45,230 nucleotides of DNA from assembly GCA_903642275.1 (NCBI GenBank), contig CAHJWK010000027.1, forward strand, positions 1-45,230, written 5' to 3'. The notes beneath the pieces are model-generated. The model made no database searches. It saw nothing but the letters and a program-made list of their open reading frames with translations, and was not told the DNA's origin. The translations under genes and the position numbers were made by a program. Numbering within the stretch: position 1 is the stretch's first letter; each line of letters opens with the position of its first letter. This DNA is from Chitinophagaceae bacterium (GTDB lineage: Bacteria; Bacteroidota; Bacteroidia; Chitinophagales; Chitinophagaceae). Of this stretch, positions 37,936 through 42,626 are shown one piece after another.

Positions 37936-38377
37936 CTACAATTTTGCAATAACCGAAGCCGGAGCAATGTAAAGCTTAAGCGCTTTTGCAACGGTTCCGT
38001 AAGCATTAGCAGCAAATAATATTATAATAAACGTTGCGCCGTCTGAGCCTTGAATAATAACCGGCACACCACTTATTTTTCCTGTTTTGGAATTAAGTGT
38101 TAAGCCTTGCGGTAACCCTTGGATTAAAGTTTTGTGCGTTTGTATAATTCGGATAGCTTACATACGGATATTGCGTTTGATGTAAAATAGTAGAAGCGCT
38201 TACGCCAAAATTACCTATCAAATCTTTGCTTAAAATCTTTTGTAACTGGCTCGGATAACTTAATGAATCAGCAATTCCATATCCTGCGGTAATACTTGTG
38301 CCTGTACAGGAAACTTTTATTTGTGCATAATTGTTCAGCCAACTAAACAACAAAACAACAGAGAGTGCAGATTTCAT
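37936..38377 (-). pseudogene. Decayed SGNH hydrolase fused to a He_PIG Ig fragment
   Basis: From 38377 (MKSALSVVLLFSW, signal peptide) the frame reads CTGTSITAGYGIADSLSYPSQLQ, the first SGNH block of an esterase, and VGNFGVSASTILHQ. It stops being esterase after NAQNFNPRV, just where GTND should come, and terminates at 38093. In the next frame the same DNA continues as GLPQGLTLNSKTGKISG, a textbook putative-Ig (He_PIG) segment, down to SVIAKL and a stop at 37936. So the catalytic centre (GTND and DxxH blocks) is missing and the two parts are out of frame, around 38110-38120. An internal deletion in one esterase-Ig gene is the simplest explanation. Confidence 0.8.
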
Positions 38378-38470
38378 TTCTTCTTTCAGCAATAAAATGT
38401 TTGCTGAGTTGAAGTTATACATTCATGGCTGAAATAAAAGCAGTAACTGTAATAATTGTAACCAGTTTAT

Positions 38471-38953
38471 TTAAAACGCATAACGTACACCCAAGCCACC
38501 CCAGCCACCTTCAAAATAATTGTAGCCAACAAAGTTGAATGATGGCTGCCAGTCAAGGCTTACATCTATTGGCGCACCATTAATTTTATAGTCAAGTCCA
38601 ATCACACCATCAACACCAAACATTAATCCATCAGAACGTTCTGGGTATTTGTTTTGCCAATGATTATTCCAGAAACCTAAATGAGCACCCGGCCCTAAAT
38701 AATATTTCAACCCTTCAATGCCATTAATGTCGCCGTGAATTTCATACAAGCCGGTAATACGTGTGCCGTAATTCCAGAAATACAACAGCCCTTCCAGCGC
38801 AACATCATCTTTTATAAAAGTTTTTGCGGATATAGCGCCCGGATAAATTTTTACACCGATAGCCGTTTTATAATCATCGCCCAGTGCCATTTTCTGTGCA
38901 TAAATATTTGCCGTGATTGCAATAAGCACAGTAATAAAGAATAGTTTTTTCAT
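38471..38953 (-). CDS. Small barrel-like exported protein, tandem copy A
   Basis: The 160 residues start with a signal peptide (MKKLFFITVLIAITANIYAQ). The body matches the neighbour copy B through the shared frame AIGVKIYPG, GLYEIHG, YYLGPGAHLGFWN, GVDGVIGLDYKINGAPIDVSLDWQP and a final GGLGVRYAF. Alternating aromatic residues and the terminal Phe fit an eight-stranded outer-membrane beta-barrel. Family resembles Bacteroidota OmpW-type or 'outer membrane insertion signal' proteins, but no function is known. Encoded 21 bp from copy B. Confidence 0.7.
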   Translation of the reverse strand: MKKLFFITVLIAITANIYAQKMALGDDYKTAIGVKIYPGAISAKTFIKDDVALEGLLYFWNYGTRITGLYEIHGDINGIEGLKYYLGPGAHLGFWNNHWQNKYPERSDGLMFGVDGVIGLDYKINGAPIDVSLDWQPSFNFVGYNYFEGGWGGLGVRYAF

Positions 38954-38974
38954 GATAGATTTTGAAGTGAATAA

Positions 38975-39439
38975 TTAAAATGTATATCGAACTGCAAAGC
39001 CGCCAAATGCTGGTGTAAAACCGGCAGAGCCAACTAATGTTACAGCAGGCTCCCAATCAACACTTACATTAATGGGTGCATCTTTTATTTTATAATCAAG
39101 CCCGATGATTCCATCAATACCTAAATCTATATCTGAATTATAGCTGTCTTTATAAGCGCTTTTCCAGAAGCCAAGATGTGCGCCGGGACCAACAAACCAT
39201 GACAGTTCCGGCACTTCATCAAATGCATAAAAATTAAACTCATATAAACCTGATGCCCGAAAGCCTTTATGCCATAAGGTGACCTGCGCTTCGATGTTAC
39301 GTGTATCAGTTACAAACTGTTTATACGTTGCAGAAAAACCACCGGGAAATTTCAAACCGATTGCACGGTCATAAGGTGCCTGTGCATTTGCATTAATGAT
39401 GAGTATTGTACAAAGAAATACAAACAGGAGTTTATGCAT
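38975..39439 (-). CDS. Small barrel-like exported protein, tandem copy B
   Basis: The 154 residues have a signal peptide (MHKLLFVFLCTILIINANAQ) and the same frame as copy A: RAIGLKFPGGFSATYKQF, SGLYEFNFYAF, WFVGPGAHLGFWK, GIDGIIGLDYKIKDAPINVSVDWEP, GGFAVRYTF. About half the aligned residues agree, so this is an old tandem duplication. Transcribed first of the pair. Presumed outer-membrane barrel, function unknown. Confidence 0.7.
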   Translation of the reverse strand: MHKLLFVFLCTILIINANAQAPYDRAIGLKFPGGFSATYKQFVTDTRNIEAQVTLWHKGFRASGLYEFNFYAFDEVPELSWFVGPGAHLGFWKSAYKDSYNSDIDLGIDGIIGLDYKIKDAPINVSVDWEPAVTLVGSAGFTPAFGGFAVRYTF

Positions 39440-39539
39440 GGTGTTGTAATAAGTAAAACTGAAACGAATATGAATTAAAAAAATTTACAAAGCACTTGTT
39501 AATTCGTGTTGTTGATACGTTTGTTTATTTTAAAAGTTC

Positions 39540-40214
39540 TTACCTGCATTTATTATATTCTTCAACAATTCTTTTTATTACCTCATTCTTTTTTGCATCT
39601 AATGAAACTTGTTTAAGAGCATAGCCGTTTTGCTTTTGCTCAATCTTTTCCGCCAATAAAGGACAATCAGATACAATTTTACTCATCTTATCTTCAAAGT
39701 CCGGGAAAAATTTAATGCCACGAATGCTCCATGACACAAATCTGTTTTCATTACTAAAAGATACATAGTAATCATATTGGTCAAACTCTTCTAATGAGTT
39801 ATTCTTTGACCTATATAACTCAAAAAGCTGAAGCTTTGCACTATCGTTAGTCAGCCGCTTTAAAAACAAGATATTATTTACATCAGGTGTAAATAATTTG
39901 TCTTTGTAAGGAATTTGATACGCTTCAAGATTTATTGCTTTTGGAAAATACAAGGCGTTATTATACTTGTAATATTTAATGTCTGTTGCTAATATTTCTT
40001 TGTCTGTAGTTGTATTTGTAATAATTTTTAAAAGCTTGTTGTTATCATGTCCGGTTTCAAATTGAATGGTTAATTTTCCATCTACTTCTGTACCATCATT
40101 TAAAAAAACCTGGCAACTTTCATTTAATAAATTATTCGGGCTATTAAAATACGAATATGTTTTGCAACCTTGCGTTATTAAATAAAATAATAATAGAATT
40201 GTGAGCTTATACAT
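39540..40214 (-). CDS. Lipoprotein of unknown function
   Basis: I choose the start at 40214 because MYKLTILLLFYLITQGC has a clean lipobox (Cys17); the longer frame to 40289 would start in a charged, non-signal stretch overlapping the repeat array. That gives 224 residues. After the signal, residues about 30-150 appear beta-rich (DGTEVDGKLTIQFETG, LATDIKYYKYNNALYFPKA). The C-terminal part is helical and charged (KMSKIVSDCPLLAEKIEQKQNGY). I do not recognise the family. Its upstream region is the 21-bp repeat array. Confidence 0.65.
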   Translation of the reverse strand: MYKLTILLLFYLITQGCKTYSYFNSPNNLLNESCQVFLNDGTEVDGKLTIQFETGHDNNKLLKIITNTTTDKEILATDIKYYKYNNALYFPKAINLEAYQIPYKDKLFTPDVNNILFLKRLTNDSAKLQLFELYRSKNNSLEEFDQYDYYVSFSNENRFVSWSIRGIKFFPDFEDKMSKIVSDCPLLAEKIEQKQNGYALKQVSLDAKKNEVIKRIVEEYNKCR

Positions 40215-40286
40215 TGCTGCTGTTTTGGTAAGAAAATTTACAATTTTACACCTGTTTTTCGAACTTAAAAAATTCGTCCGTCTGTG

Positions 40287-40538
40287 CAACTCTTAATTTT
40301 ACGAAAGTCAAATTGTATATTCAAAGAGTAAAATTATACTCTCTTAGTGTCTCCCTTGACTCTCAAAGCATCAAACGAGACTATCAAAGCATCAAATAAG
40401 ACGTTTAAAGCATCAACGTTGACTTTAAAAGAGTCTCTATTAACTCTCAAAGCATCTCTGGTGACTCTCAGAGAGTCAAATTTAACAGTAATAGAGTCTC
40501 CGCTCATTCTCAAAGAGTCTGCGTTGACTCCCGGAGAG
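40287..40538 (+). repeat. Array of about twelve degenerate 21-bp repeats
   Basis: Nine clear units begin at 40350 and end at 40538, each 21 bases. Read in the plus-strand frame a unit encodes S-x-x-T-x-K-(A/E). Units 40308-40328 and 40329-40349 fit the spacing, and 40287-40307 weakly so. Recurrent cores are ACTCTCAAAGCATC and GAGTC/GACTC, which create local palindromes such as TGACTCTC-A-GAGAGTCA (about 40458-40474) and TTGACTC-CCGGA-GAGTCAA. It lies between the divergently or serially arranged minus-strand genes at 40214 and 40609. Confidence 0.85.
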
Positions 40539-40549
40539 TCAACTTGTCA

Positions 40550-40587
40550 TCAAATAACAAAAAAGGAGAAGCAAAATGCTTCCCCTT
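40550..40587 (-). terminator. Intrinsic terminator of the 40609-41085 gene
   Basis: On the minus strand AAGGGGAAGC, loop ATTTT, GCTTCTCCTT (one A-C mismatch in ten pairs) is followed by TTTTTTGTTATTT. It sits 22 bases beyond the stop codon. Confidence 0.85.
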
Positions 40588-40608
40588 ATGCAATTGCAAA
40601 AACCAAAT

Positions 40609-41085
40609 CTAAGCCGTTGGTGGTTTTATTTCCTTTTGATGCGCTTTTGCAAAACGCACCTTCAGGTCATCATAAATAGCTTTTGCGCCCGGCATGTTAC
40701 GCCTTGCACCTTCTTTTACCGAGTTGTAATACATTAATGCCACCGTGTACGCTTCGCTGCCGGCAATTGTAATCGTATCATCTAATTGCGTAACAAGGTT
40801 TTTAAGCGGCTGCTCAATTGAAGTAAGGCCGCTTACGGCTGCAACATCATCATTTAAATCTTTAGTGTTCATATAGCCCGGCGCAAATTGCGGGGCACTT
40901 TCTGCATAACTCAATGCTTTTGAAACAAACGCAATGGTTTTGTCGCCCATTTTTAAAATTCCGTGCTTTTCATCCGGCGTAAGTGCCTCCATGTAAGGCG
41001 TTAATAATGTAGTAATCTGGTTTGATAAATCCAATGCCTGGGCAATTACTTCAGGCGGAATTGCGGTAACTTGATTGTCTGCCAT
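40609..41085 (-). CDS. Conserved small helical protein, unrecognised
   Basis: The 158 residues have no signal and no membrane segment. They are predicted helical, with regular Leu/Ala spacing: EVIAQALDLSNQITTLLTPYMEALTPDEKHGILKMGDKTIAFVSKAL, then QPLKNLVTQLDDTITIAGSEAYTVALMYYNSVKEGARRN. I recognise it only as a type often annotated as hypothetical in Bacteroidota. The stop is followed by a good terminator, and the 21-bp repeat array lies right after that. Role unknown. Confidence 0.7.
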   Translation of the reverse strand: MADNQVTAIPPEVIAQALDLSNQITTLLTPYMEALTPDEKHGILKMGDKTIAFVSKALSYAESAPQFAPGYMNTKDLNDDVAAVSGLTSIEQPLKNLVTQLDDTITIAGSEAYTVALMYYNSVKEGARRNMPGAKAIYDDLKVRFAKAHQKEIKPPTA

Positions 41086-41192
41086 GTTTTAAAGTTTTTC
41101 ATTAAGAAATTGTAATGAAAGTTAAAACGATTTACTGCTTTAGAATAAACATTGTGGCTGATTAGGATGTAAATGTGTTGTTTTACCCAAAT

Positions 41193-41225
41193 AAAAACGC
41201 CCCGTTTTTCAACGAAGCGCTTTTT
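41193..41225 (-). terminator. Terminator of the SusC/SusD operon
   Basis: On the minus strand AAAAAGCGCTTCGTT, loop GAAA, AACGGGGCGTTTTT pairs over about 15 positions with G-U pairs, then T-rich sequence. It starts about 18 bases beyond the SusD stop codon. Confidence 0.85.
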
Positions 41226-41243
41226 GAGCAGCACAAAAACTAT

Positions 41244-42626
41244 TTAATAACCCGGGTTTTGCGTAAGATTACTGTTTACATCAATTTCGCGTTGCGGTAT
41301 GGGCAATACAAGTTTAGGATCATTATAAGGAAAATCACCAACATTAAGCTTAAGCCGTTTTAATGTCCATAACCTGTCGCCTTCAAAACCTAATTCTCTG
41401 AAGCGTTCATCAACAAAATCCCCGGCAGACAAGTCAGTAATACCGGTTGCTCCGGCACGTTCTCTTACTTTATTTATATCCTGCAGAGGGGTTACTCCGC
41501 CAACCGGTGAACCACCTTTACGAAAATTTGCTTCACCTCTTGTTAAATACATTTCTGCTAAACGCACAACCGGTACTACGCGGTAAAACGTAAGCCATTT
41601 TTGGGTATAGGTTCCGGCATTACCTGCAATGCTGGAACCATCCAACGTAAAGCTGCCCCTGAAATCATTTGCGTCAAAATACGTGAGGTAATTCGGGTCA
41701 ACCTGTGCATCACCCCTGCCACCTTTGTTATTTCCATCAGCATCATATGCATAACGGTAAAATGTTACTATACCATTATCTTCTGTACCTGCGTTGCTTT
41801 GCGGCGTTTGCTGTATGCCAAATATATCTTCCGTTGAATTGCTGGGATTATTAAATGCCTGGTTAAAGGTTGAAGTAAGTGTAAAAATGCCTGATGTAAT
41901 TACAGTATTTGCAGCAGTTGCAGCGTTTGCATAATCACCCATGTTCATATACACTCTTGCAAGAAAAGCCTGTGCTGCATAAGTTGTTGCCCTTGCATTG
42001 TCCGCCGTTTCAGGCAGGTTACCGGCAGCATCAGTAAGATCGCTTATTACCTGTTTATATACATCTGCAATAGTTGCACGTGCAGGTTTATTTTTTGTTG
42101 AATCATAGTTGTATGTTGGCTGTAAAATAAGCGGCACGCCTGCATTGGCTGATGTATTACCGGCTGAATATGGCTGTGCAAAATAATTAATCAACTCATA
42201 GTAAGCCACGCCACGTATAAACTTTGCTTCTGCAGCAATTTCTTTTTGTTCAGATGTATCAACCAGCGAAATCTTATCTAAAACAATATTCATATTTTCA
42301 ATAAGCAGGTAAGAATTCTCCCACATATTTGTTGGAATAACATTGGTTTGCGTTTGCTGCTTATTTGATAAATCTTTATAGTCAGTAAACGTTCCTATAA
42401 AATCAAGCTGGTTATCACTTGCCAGCAGGTCTGATGCAAAAATGTATTCTTCACCAAACGCAGATGCATTTTGCATTAATGAATAGCCACCAAATAATAA
42501 TGCAGTTACATCATCGCCGGTTTCTATAGCTGTAACATTATTTTGAGGTAATACATCAAGTTTTTTATTGCATGAAAATATCGCTACAACAAAAGCTGTT
42601 ACCAGTAAATATTTAAAGTATTTCAT
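41244..42626 (-). CDS. SusD/RagB family glycan-binding lipoprotein
   Basis: Surface lipoprotein that caps the SusC channel and captures a nutrient ligand. The 460 residues start MKYFKYLLVTAFVVAIFSC with the lipobox Cys19, then the typical CNKKLDVLPQN. The TPR-like helical region has AEAKFIRGVAYYELINYFAQPY (about 132-153) and NARATTYAAQAFLARVYMNMGDYANAA. The C-terminus has VPVVRLAEMYLTRGEANFRKGG, INKVRERAGA and ELGFEGDRLWTLKRLKL near the end, all SusD family marks. It starts 19 bp after the SusC stop. The ligand cannot be told from this gene pair. Confidence 0.95.
   Translation of the reverse strand: MKYFKYLLVTAFVVAIFSCNKKLDVLPQNNVTAIETGDDVTALLFGGYSLMQNASAFGEEYIFASDLLASDNQLDFIGTFTDYKDLSNKQQTQTNVIPTNMWENSYLLIENMNIVLDKISLVDTSEQKEIAAEAKFIRGVAYYELINYFAQPYSAGNTSANAGVPLILQPTYNYDSTKNKPARATIADVYKQVISDLTDAAGNLPETADNARATTYAAQAFLARVYMNMGDYANAATAANTVITSGIFTLTSTFNQAFNNPSNSTEDIFGIQQTPQSNAGTEDNGIVTFYRYAYDADGNNKGGRGDAQVDPNYLTYFDANDFRGSFTLDGSSIAGNAGTYTQKWLTFYRVVPVVRLAEMYLTRGEANFRKGGSPVGGVTPLQDINKVRERAGATGITDLSAGDFVDERFRELGFEGDRLWTLKRLKLNVGDFPYNDPKLVLPIPQREIDVNSNLTQNPGY

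Follow-up and report, generated by a model that had tools for sequence, protein, structure and literature searches.

The tandem array at positions 40288 to 40539 of the DNA analysed here, a stretch of 45,230 nucleotides from a Chitinophagaceae bacterium (hereafter the window), is, as comparison of related loci suggests, one case of a widespread association, apparently not described before, between a small helical protein and an array of palindromic sites spaced by helical turns. The features concerned are the following:

40288..40539, minus strand: array of twelve 21-bp units with the consensus ACTCTTTGAGAGTCAAATTTG and inverted GACTC/GAGTC half-sites (repeat scoring and permutation)
40559..40585, minus strand: terminator-like hairpin between the 158-residue gene and the array (by eye; stems 40578-40585 and 40565-40572, then a minus-strand T run)
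40609..41085, minus strand: 158-residue family gene, the partner of the array, with an acidic product and an all-helical model (homology searches and AlphaFold2)

The array and its neighbouring gene

The register of the array is constant across all 12 units, from 40539 down to 40288 on the minus strand, without a single indel (z 17.9), which bears out the initial annotation's description of twelve degenerate 21-bp repeats at constant spacing. The consensus is matched at 14-17 of 21 positions by 11 of the 12 units and at only 10 of 21 by the last (ending at 40288). Self-matching at lags of 21, 42 and 63 averaged 0.582 against 0.268 in shuffles (n=2000, s.d. 0.018, maximum 0.329), and in a lag-21 scan of the whole window the array scored best (0.586; runner-up region 0.386). 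The orientation of the half-sites, read from the aligned units, flips approximately every 10.5 bp, and the array is dyad-symmetric (row L001; z 4.4, reached by 0 of 500 column permutations), so that the GAGTC/GACTC palindromes noted earlier are likewise upheld. The core palindrome with up to two mismatches has six matches in the window's genome, five of them inside the array (two of these being both strands of one place), and a search of that genome with the whole array returned only short partial matches elsewhere.

Several further features were seen nearby. The window's own genome contains another stretch with a 21-bp period (G000:C15, L004:233-443), which is rich in A/T and has TATAG/TATAA elements; there is no family gene on the 1.7 kb examined, and a gene-less array is possible. 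Within the window, two adjoining small minus-strand ORFs (38471-39439; 160 and 154 aa) are alike by eye, perhaps through tandem duplication, and had no Pfam match up to E 1, and a 109-aa minus-strand ORF (38093-38422) resembles, on inspection by eye, the beginning of a GDSL-type hydrolase and may be truncated. Rfam gave nine matches over 39500-41300, none at the gathering score.

The 158-residue protein had no match near the curated cut-offs of NCBIfam or Pfam. Searches with 20 family members against Pfam, PHROGs and PADLOC yielded weak matches only, nearly all to single members (best E 0.001), and a profile built from 74 relatives found nothing below E 0.5 among PDB sequences. No RHH or HTH DNA-binding domain was matched near the Pfam cut-off, either for the window protein or for the 20 members, and no recombinase-like match appeared in the same searches. 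The AlphaFold2 model (pLDDT 89.8, pTM 0.69) consists of helices only, one of them 55 residues long; neither a fold search against the PDB (best E 4.8) nor a second comparison with 34 chains (best Z 3.9) gave a clear match, a known fold still being possible, and the best hit in a viral structure library had an E of 0.8. The 74 relatives all have K45, P69, D80, G109 and Y120, and 93-95% of them have R40, K49 and K56; several of these eight residues are missing in distant members such as the ortholog cluster of a distant genus. The proteins are acidic (pI 5.1 for the window protein; median 5.5, n=74). A family of hundreds of members appears to be unnamed and to have no recognised relative in the libraries searched; open-licence PubMed Central papers on it or its arrays were not found, which is weak evidence of absence given the narrow search terms.

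Distribution of the family and linkage to arrays

At E<=1e-6, family members were found in 18 of the 147 genomes searched from the bacterial family, in at least 31 of 395 genomes of the phylum (a lower bound, as up to nine candidates were scored per genome) and in 66 of 148 genomes of one distant genus, with four copies in the window's own genome and 12 in another (G032). A scan of 84,980 species genomes returned at least 469 loci encoding the family. Among the best 80 of these, the named isolates were of Epilithonimonas, Chryseobacterium, Flavobacterium, Solitalea, Taibaiella and Labilibacter, and contig titles included Melioribacteraceae, KSB1, Planctomycetaceae, Treponema and Azoarcus, these phylum labels being titles of metagenome-assembled genomes in which mis-binned contigs are possible.

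The patchy distribution, the multiple copies and the several phylum labels would suit a reading in which an undescribed mobile or selfish element has the 158-residue gene as its sole gene and the array as its insertion target, its end or its copy-control region, as would the gene-less arrays described below and the absence of any neighbour gene in more than four loci among 1156 flanking ORFs (1.5-3 kb flanks; one larger ORF cluster, of 11 loci, apparently consists, by position, of arrays read as ORFs). We nevertheless regard this reading as improbable: viral contigs and phage records held no family relative with the queries used, 72,556 plasmid records gave one weak homolog (query L105 gave none), no recombinase-like match was found, and four of five orthologous loci compared retain the same chromosomal neighbours. 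The plasmid homolog, WP_100922920.1 (L173:2414-2881), is distant; its gene lies on a plasmid of Thiodictyon, flanked by polyamine and pyruvate kinase genes, and inspection by eye showed no obvious array downstream. A comparison with empty sites gave no readable boundary; the SusD neighbour has orthologs in two genomes (G007 and G004), but gene order is lost past SusD.

The linkage between gene and array was measured across the family. At z>=4, indel-tolerant self-alignment detected a downstream array for 142 of 192 family genes and an upstream array for 20 of 180, and at z>=10 the counts were 113 downstream versus 7 upstream; 50 of the 192 genes, which include orthologs and close paralogs and are not independent, have no downstream array at z>=4. 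Of the 146 family genes for which 250 nt or more of downstream sequence was available, 98 reached a simple-lag autocorrelation of at least 0.45 in the downstream region and 7 in the upstream region; no shuffled region did. The position beside the 158-residue gene, whose conservation the initial annotation had proposed to check, is therefore conserved, and the gene is a regular partner of the array, not merely a possible neighbour; the periodic arrays that it had proposed to seek in relatives are there as well, the period being 21 bp in 62 of the 98 array-bearing genes, 42 bp in 24, 43 bp in 6, 22 bp in 4, and 32 and 54 bp in one each. The arrays have a median size of 10.3 units. In three loci of one genome from another family of the same order (L012, L025 and L033 of G046), strong 21-bp arrays lie upstream instead of downstream. 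Some loci of this genome contain masked N stretches; most locus analyses used only the first family gene per locus and left such stretches in place. At one further locus (L054), the repeats behind the family gene are 54 bp long and look different.

Terminator-like hairpins lie within 110 nt past the stop codon in 83 of 150 family genes, compared with 20 of 150 shuffled sequences. In four loci (L084, L103, L105 and L155), the stem of the gene's terminator is made of the same GACTC/GAGTC motif as the array behind it. The next gene past the family gene is codirectional in 52 of 77 cases and convergent in 25, at a median distance of 235 bp, and this loose placement disfavours regulation of that gene by the array. 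Autoregulation through the promoter was likewise dropped, as the DNA upstream of the gene holds no excess of the motifs: against 20 shuffles per case the mean z was 0.18, and 10 of 87 cases reached P<=0.05, approximately the chance level. No motor NTPase gene recurs beside the family gene in the 1.5-3 kb flanks; a distant motor gene is possible.

Symmetry, motif classes and conservation of the arrays

Symmetry, mismatches and AA/TT phasing were analysed in arrays with a clean 21/22 period and at least five units, mixed-period arrays being excluded. Dyad symmetry was found in 65 of 92 such arrays at P<=0.05 and in 55 at P<=0.01 (this set is not independent either, and L146 is counted twice). 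AA/TT steps were strongest at half the unit length in 51 of the 92, as against 22% of simulated tandem arrays, with a mean power of 13.6 versus 5.5. Among 20 fetched orthologs from the distant genus, AA/TT power at 21.2 bp exceeded that at 10.6 bp in 19 and the reverse held in one; turn-by-turn phasing is not universal among the arrays.

The initial annotation had offered two ideas, a phased binding or bending array and a translated heptapeptide repeat, and only the first has stood. Stops are present in all six frames over the full window array, part of which is open in one frame per strand; at least one open frame exists in 44 of 79 period-21 arrays, the mean number being 1.10 against 0.90 after column permutation, and four tested 22-bp arrays have none. 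As the relatives' periods of 22, 43 (21+22) and 32 bp are not multiples of three, there is no heptapeptide repeat, and translation from GTG 40347 or from a minus-strand frame can be given practically no credence. The phased reading, with the units as putative binding sites, is supported by whole-turn periods, dyad symmetry, cross-species conservation, linkage to genes related to the 158-residue one and, in approximately half of the arrays, AA/TT phasing. The annotation had thus named a true and unusual feature, and the DNA nature of the array was correct as one of its two options.

A role as transcribed RNA, for example as the repeat-RNA antitoxin of a type III toxin-antitoxin system, was weighed on similar grounds. 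The repeats adjoin a terminator and a small gene, and among stem mismatches G-U exceeded A-C (244 versus 170; expected 213 ± 10 of 414), although other mismatches dominate (891). In 64 arrays, the mean complementarity between the two arms of a unit did not exceed that between arms of different units, a value depressed by arrays with slipping register or an inverted half; in L114 the second half is inverted (by eye). Furthermore, folding the alignment of 18 orthologous arrays gave a weak consensus structure (541 columns, -14.1 kcal/mol), its 18 pairs comprising eight in the terminator, the only real stem, and ten scattered in the array. Two of these ten have changes on both sides in 4 of the 18 orthologs, which, like the modest G-U excess, speaks in favour of RNA. 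The fold model leaves out pseudoknots, which are typical of type III toxin-antitoxin repeat RNA. The array also lies behind the terminator and not ahead of the gene, and we consider the RNA reading quite unlikely; as these comparisons suggest, the array is a DNA element, a peptide being rejected and an RNA improbable.

The motifs differ between loci and, as judged from sequence clustering, form loose recurring classes that are not wholly private to each locus. In 99 loci, thinned at 60% ungapped protein identity, at least three copies of TC-N1-GA were present downstream in 43 versus upstream in 9, and at least three of CT-N3-AG (N3 being mostly AAA/TTT, CCG/CGG, CAA/TTG or CAG/CTG) in 31 versus 4; these two were the best of 144 symmetric patterns and were chosen afterwards. 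Clustering at a loose cut placed 88 of 101 arrays in 12 clusters of at least three. The class near the window's motif (TTGAGTCTTTNAGACTCAA) holds 15 arrays with a median protein identity of 43% and titles from Spirochaetia to Chryseobacterium, and the closest same-genus relative of the window protein (66% identical) has a different array sequence. Mean motif similarity was 0.77 for protein pairs above 80% identity, 0.56 at 70-80% and 0.30 below 30% (null 0.29), and 40% of the pairs at 70-80% identity (n=98) had no significant motif similarity. Paralogs within one genome can share a class (L011/L019 and L024/L027) or belong to three separate clusters (L176, L216 and L226, all of G614). Residues tracking the motif were weak: columns 137, 148 and 50 exceeded the permutation 95% quantile (0.14) and stayed below its maximum (0.18), column 151 fell outside the permuted range, and in the largest cross-phylum motif class the best column, H41, had a P of 0.0017 that would fail correction.

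These data bear on the possibility that a general host protein, be it HU/IHF-like, gyrase or some other nucleoid protein, recognises the arrays as DNA that is curved or wraps easily, the 158-residue protein having a different role nearby. The half-unit AA/TT peak despite differing motifs, the weak motif-tracking residues and an acidic family protein with no known DNA-binding fold are consistent with it. A host protein of this general kind would leave unexplained why the arrays stand behind one gene family and why different conserved palindromes coexist in G614, and one ortholog group shows no turn-by-turn AA/TT phasing; we therefore hold this reading to be possible yet rather unlikely.

Conservation was examined in the distant genus, probably Chryseobacterium-like to judge by named loci such as L094 and L105, where 20 loci of one protein cluster formed an ortholog set. 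Eighteen arrays, built on AACSTATC-CG-GATASGTT every 21-22 bp, were aligned, and two (L223 and L226) were omitted because they carry another palindrome, AACCGAA...TTCGGTT-like. Per column, the information content was highest around the terminator (1.55 bits), followed by the array (1.21) and the region past it (0.76). The sites are spaced by whole helical turns: all but approximately 5 of 175 spacings between palindrome-like matches lie near whole turns, odd counts included (31-32 and 53-54), and alignment gaps of more than three columns are 21-24, 43 or 64 long in 15 of 19 cases, the 83 one-base gaps arising from the 21/22 alternation and from the alignment itself.

Arrays of the same genus also occur away from the gene. 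Two genomes (G614, as a second array there, and G666) have gene-less arrays beside the same neighbour genes, with no family gene in the 7.5 and 10 kb examined around them. These two agree in 315 of 378 alignment columns (83%) and show no gap, their flanks are unalignable, and by virtue of their synteny they make up a single event. Nor was a family gene seen in the approximately 3 kb examined at two other arrays, L256/L287 in G666 and L252 in G605. The array is thus a discrete element that can persist without an adjoining gene. With the gene-less array as query, a broader search hit 19 of 148 genomes, 18 of which also hold a gene of this cluster, and in the nineteenth (G580) the match is 46 bp and the family hit elsewhere is truncated; this agreement says little past the gene-less arrays, because most matches are the gene-linked arrays themselves. 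Slippage is a common origin of tandem repeats, and some arrays are nearly perfect repeats (L090 and L134), as would be expected of a neutral minisatellite spread in this way. The gene-family linkage, the dyad symmetry, the whole-turn spacing and the gap-free gene-less array kept in two species make this explanation very improbable.

Proposed mechanism and relation to known systems

We propose that the array works as double-stranded DNA, its palindromic putative protein sites standing in a row with one site per two turns of B-DNA, a spacing that would place all sites on one face of the helix, and that the AA/TT steps occurring each turn in many arrays would favour bending or wrapping. The cognate protein is the simplest candidate for the reader of the array; most likely this protein, or a partner of it, would bind there cooperatively. 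We infer that the product of the adjacent 158-residue gene is the binder: probably as symmetric dimers, it would bind its own array cooperatively and form a compact nucleoprotein patch, which would most likely be a locus-marking or anchoring element (centromere-like or insulator-like). The same protein could also act in trans at other chromosomal sites, on gene-less arrays that carry the same motif, and the paralogous gene-array pairs within a genome would often, not always, use different motifs. Cooperative binding of its own phased array by this protein, yielding a marking or anchoring patch, is the reading we favour, tentatively and at somewhat under even chances. The protein is acidic and has no recognised DNA-binding domain or clear fold match, and the similarity of motifs among orthologs may be plain shared descent. 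Furthermore, because paralogs can share motifs and one ortholog group has no turn-by-turn AA/TT, the weight of this cognate-binder reading was lowered and that of two rivals slightly raised.

If correct, the cognate-binder reading predicts a sequence-specific, cooperative DNA-binding protein without a known fold, for which the arrays would be ready test substrates, paralog by paralog, and natural protein-site pairs for studying the divergence of recognition. The conserved gene-less arrays hint at action at a distance, which would bear on genome organisation or segregation in Bacteroidota. More speculatively, and on balance unlikely, the family could constitute an undescribed chromosomal system of several bacterial groups, in which helical proteins with their own arrays and distant gene-less arrays mark or tie sites in a centromere-like network, recognition diversifying between paralogs.

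Several known systems invite comparison. In type III toxin-antitoxin loci (ToxIN), repeats lie upstream of the toxin gene with a terminator between them. The loci described here share with ToxIN a small gene, a terminator and tandem repeats side by side; they differ in the reversed order (repeats downstream in 142 of 192), in the 21/22-bp repeats, in the lack of any conserved RNA fold seen and in the all-helical model. ParR/parC and plasmid iterons have tandem sites next to the gene of their binder, and here too tandem sites stand beside the gene of a putative binder; in contrast to them, no ParM-like or Rep gene and no plasmid context were found, and the motif differs between paralogs. In ParABS and ParMRC partition systems, centromere sites form a tandem array, the adaptor has an RHH or HTH fold and its gene stands beside that of a motor NTPase; the arrays here have approximately ten units, to which a partition protein might conceivably bind. 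The closest detail comes from pSM19035 parS, a partition centromere in which a ribbon-helix-helix ParB (omega) binds contiguous arrays of short sites with 7-10 repeats, six such sites are present per plasmid and full activity needs at least four contiguous repeats (PMC9499535). The contiguous array of short sites is common to both; pSM19035 has non-palindromic 7-bp repeats in promoter regions, a ParA ATPase partner and a plasmid (PMC9499535), whereas the units here are palindromic, 21/22 bp long, behind the gene and chromosomal; the protein is helical and belongs to no known family, and a motor gene was not found. Tandem binding-site arrays are a known kind of object in general, but the motor or Rep gene and the plasmid location by which those systems are defined were not found here. 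By analogy with these systems, the small helical protein and its array may be a new kind of pairing that works like a centromere or an anchor.
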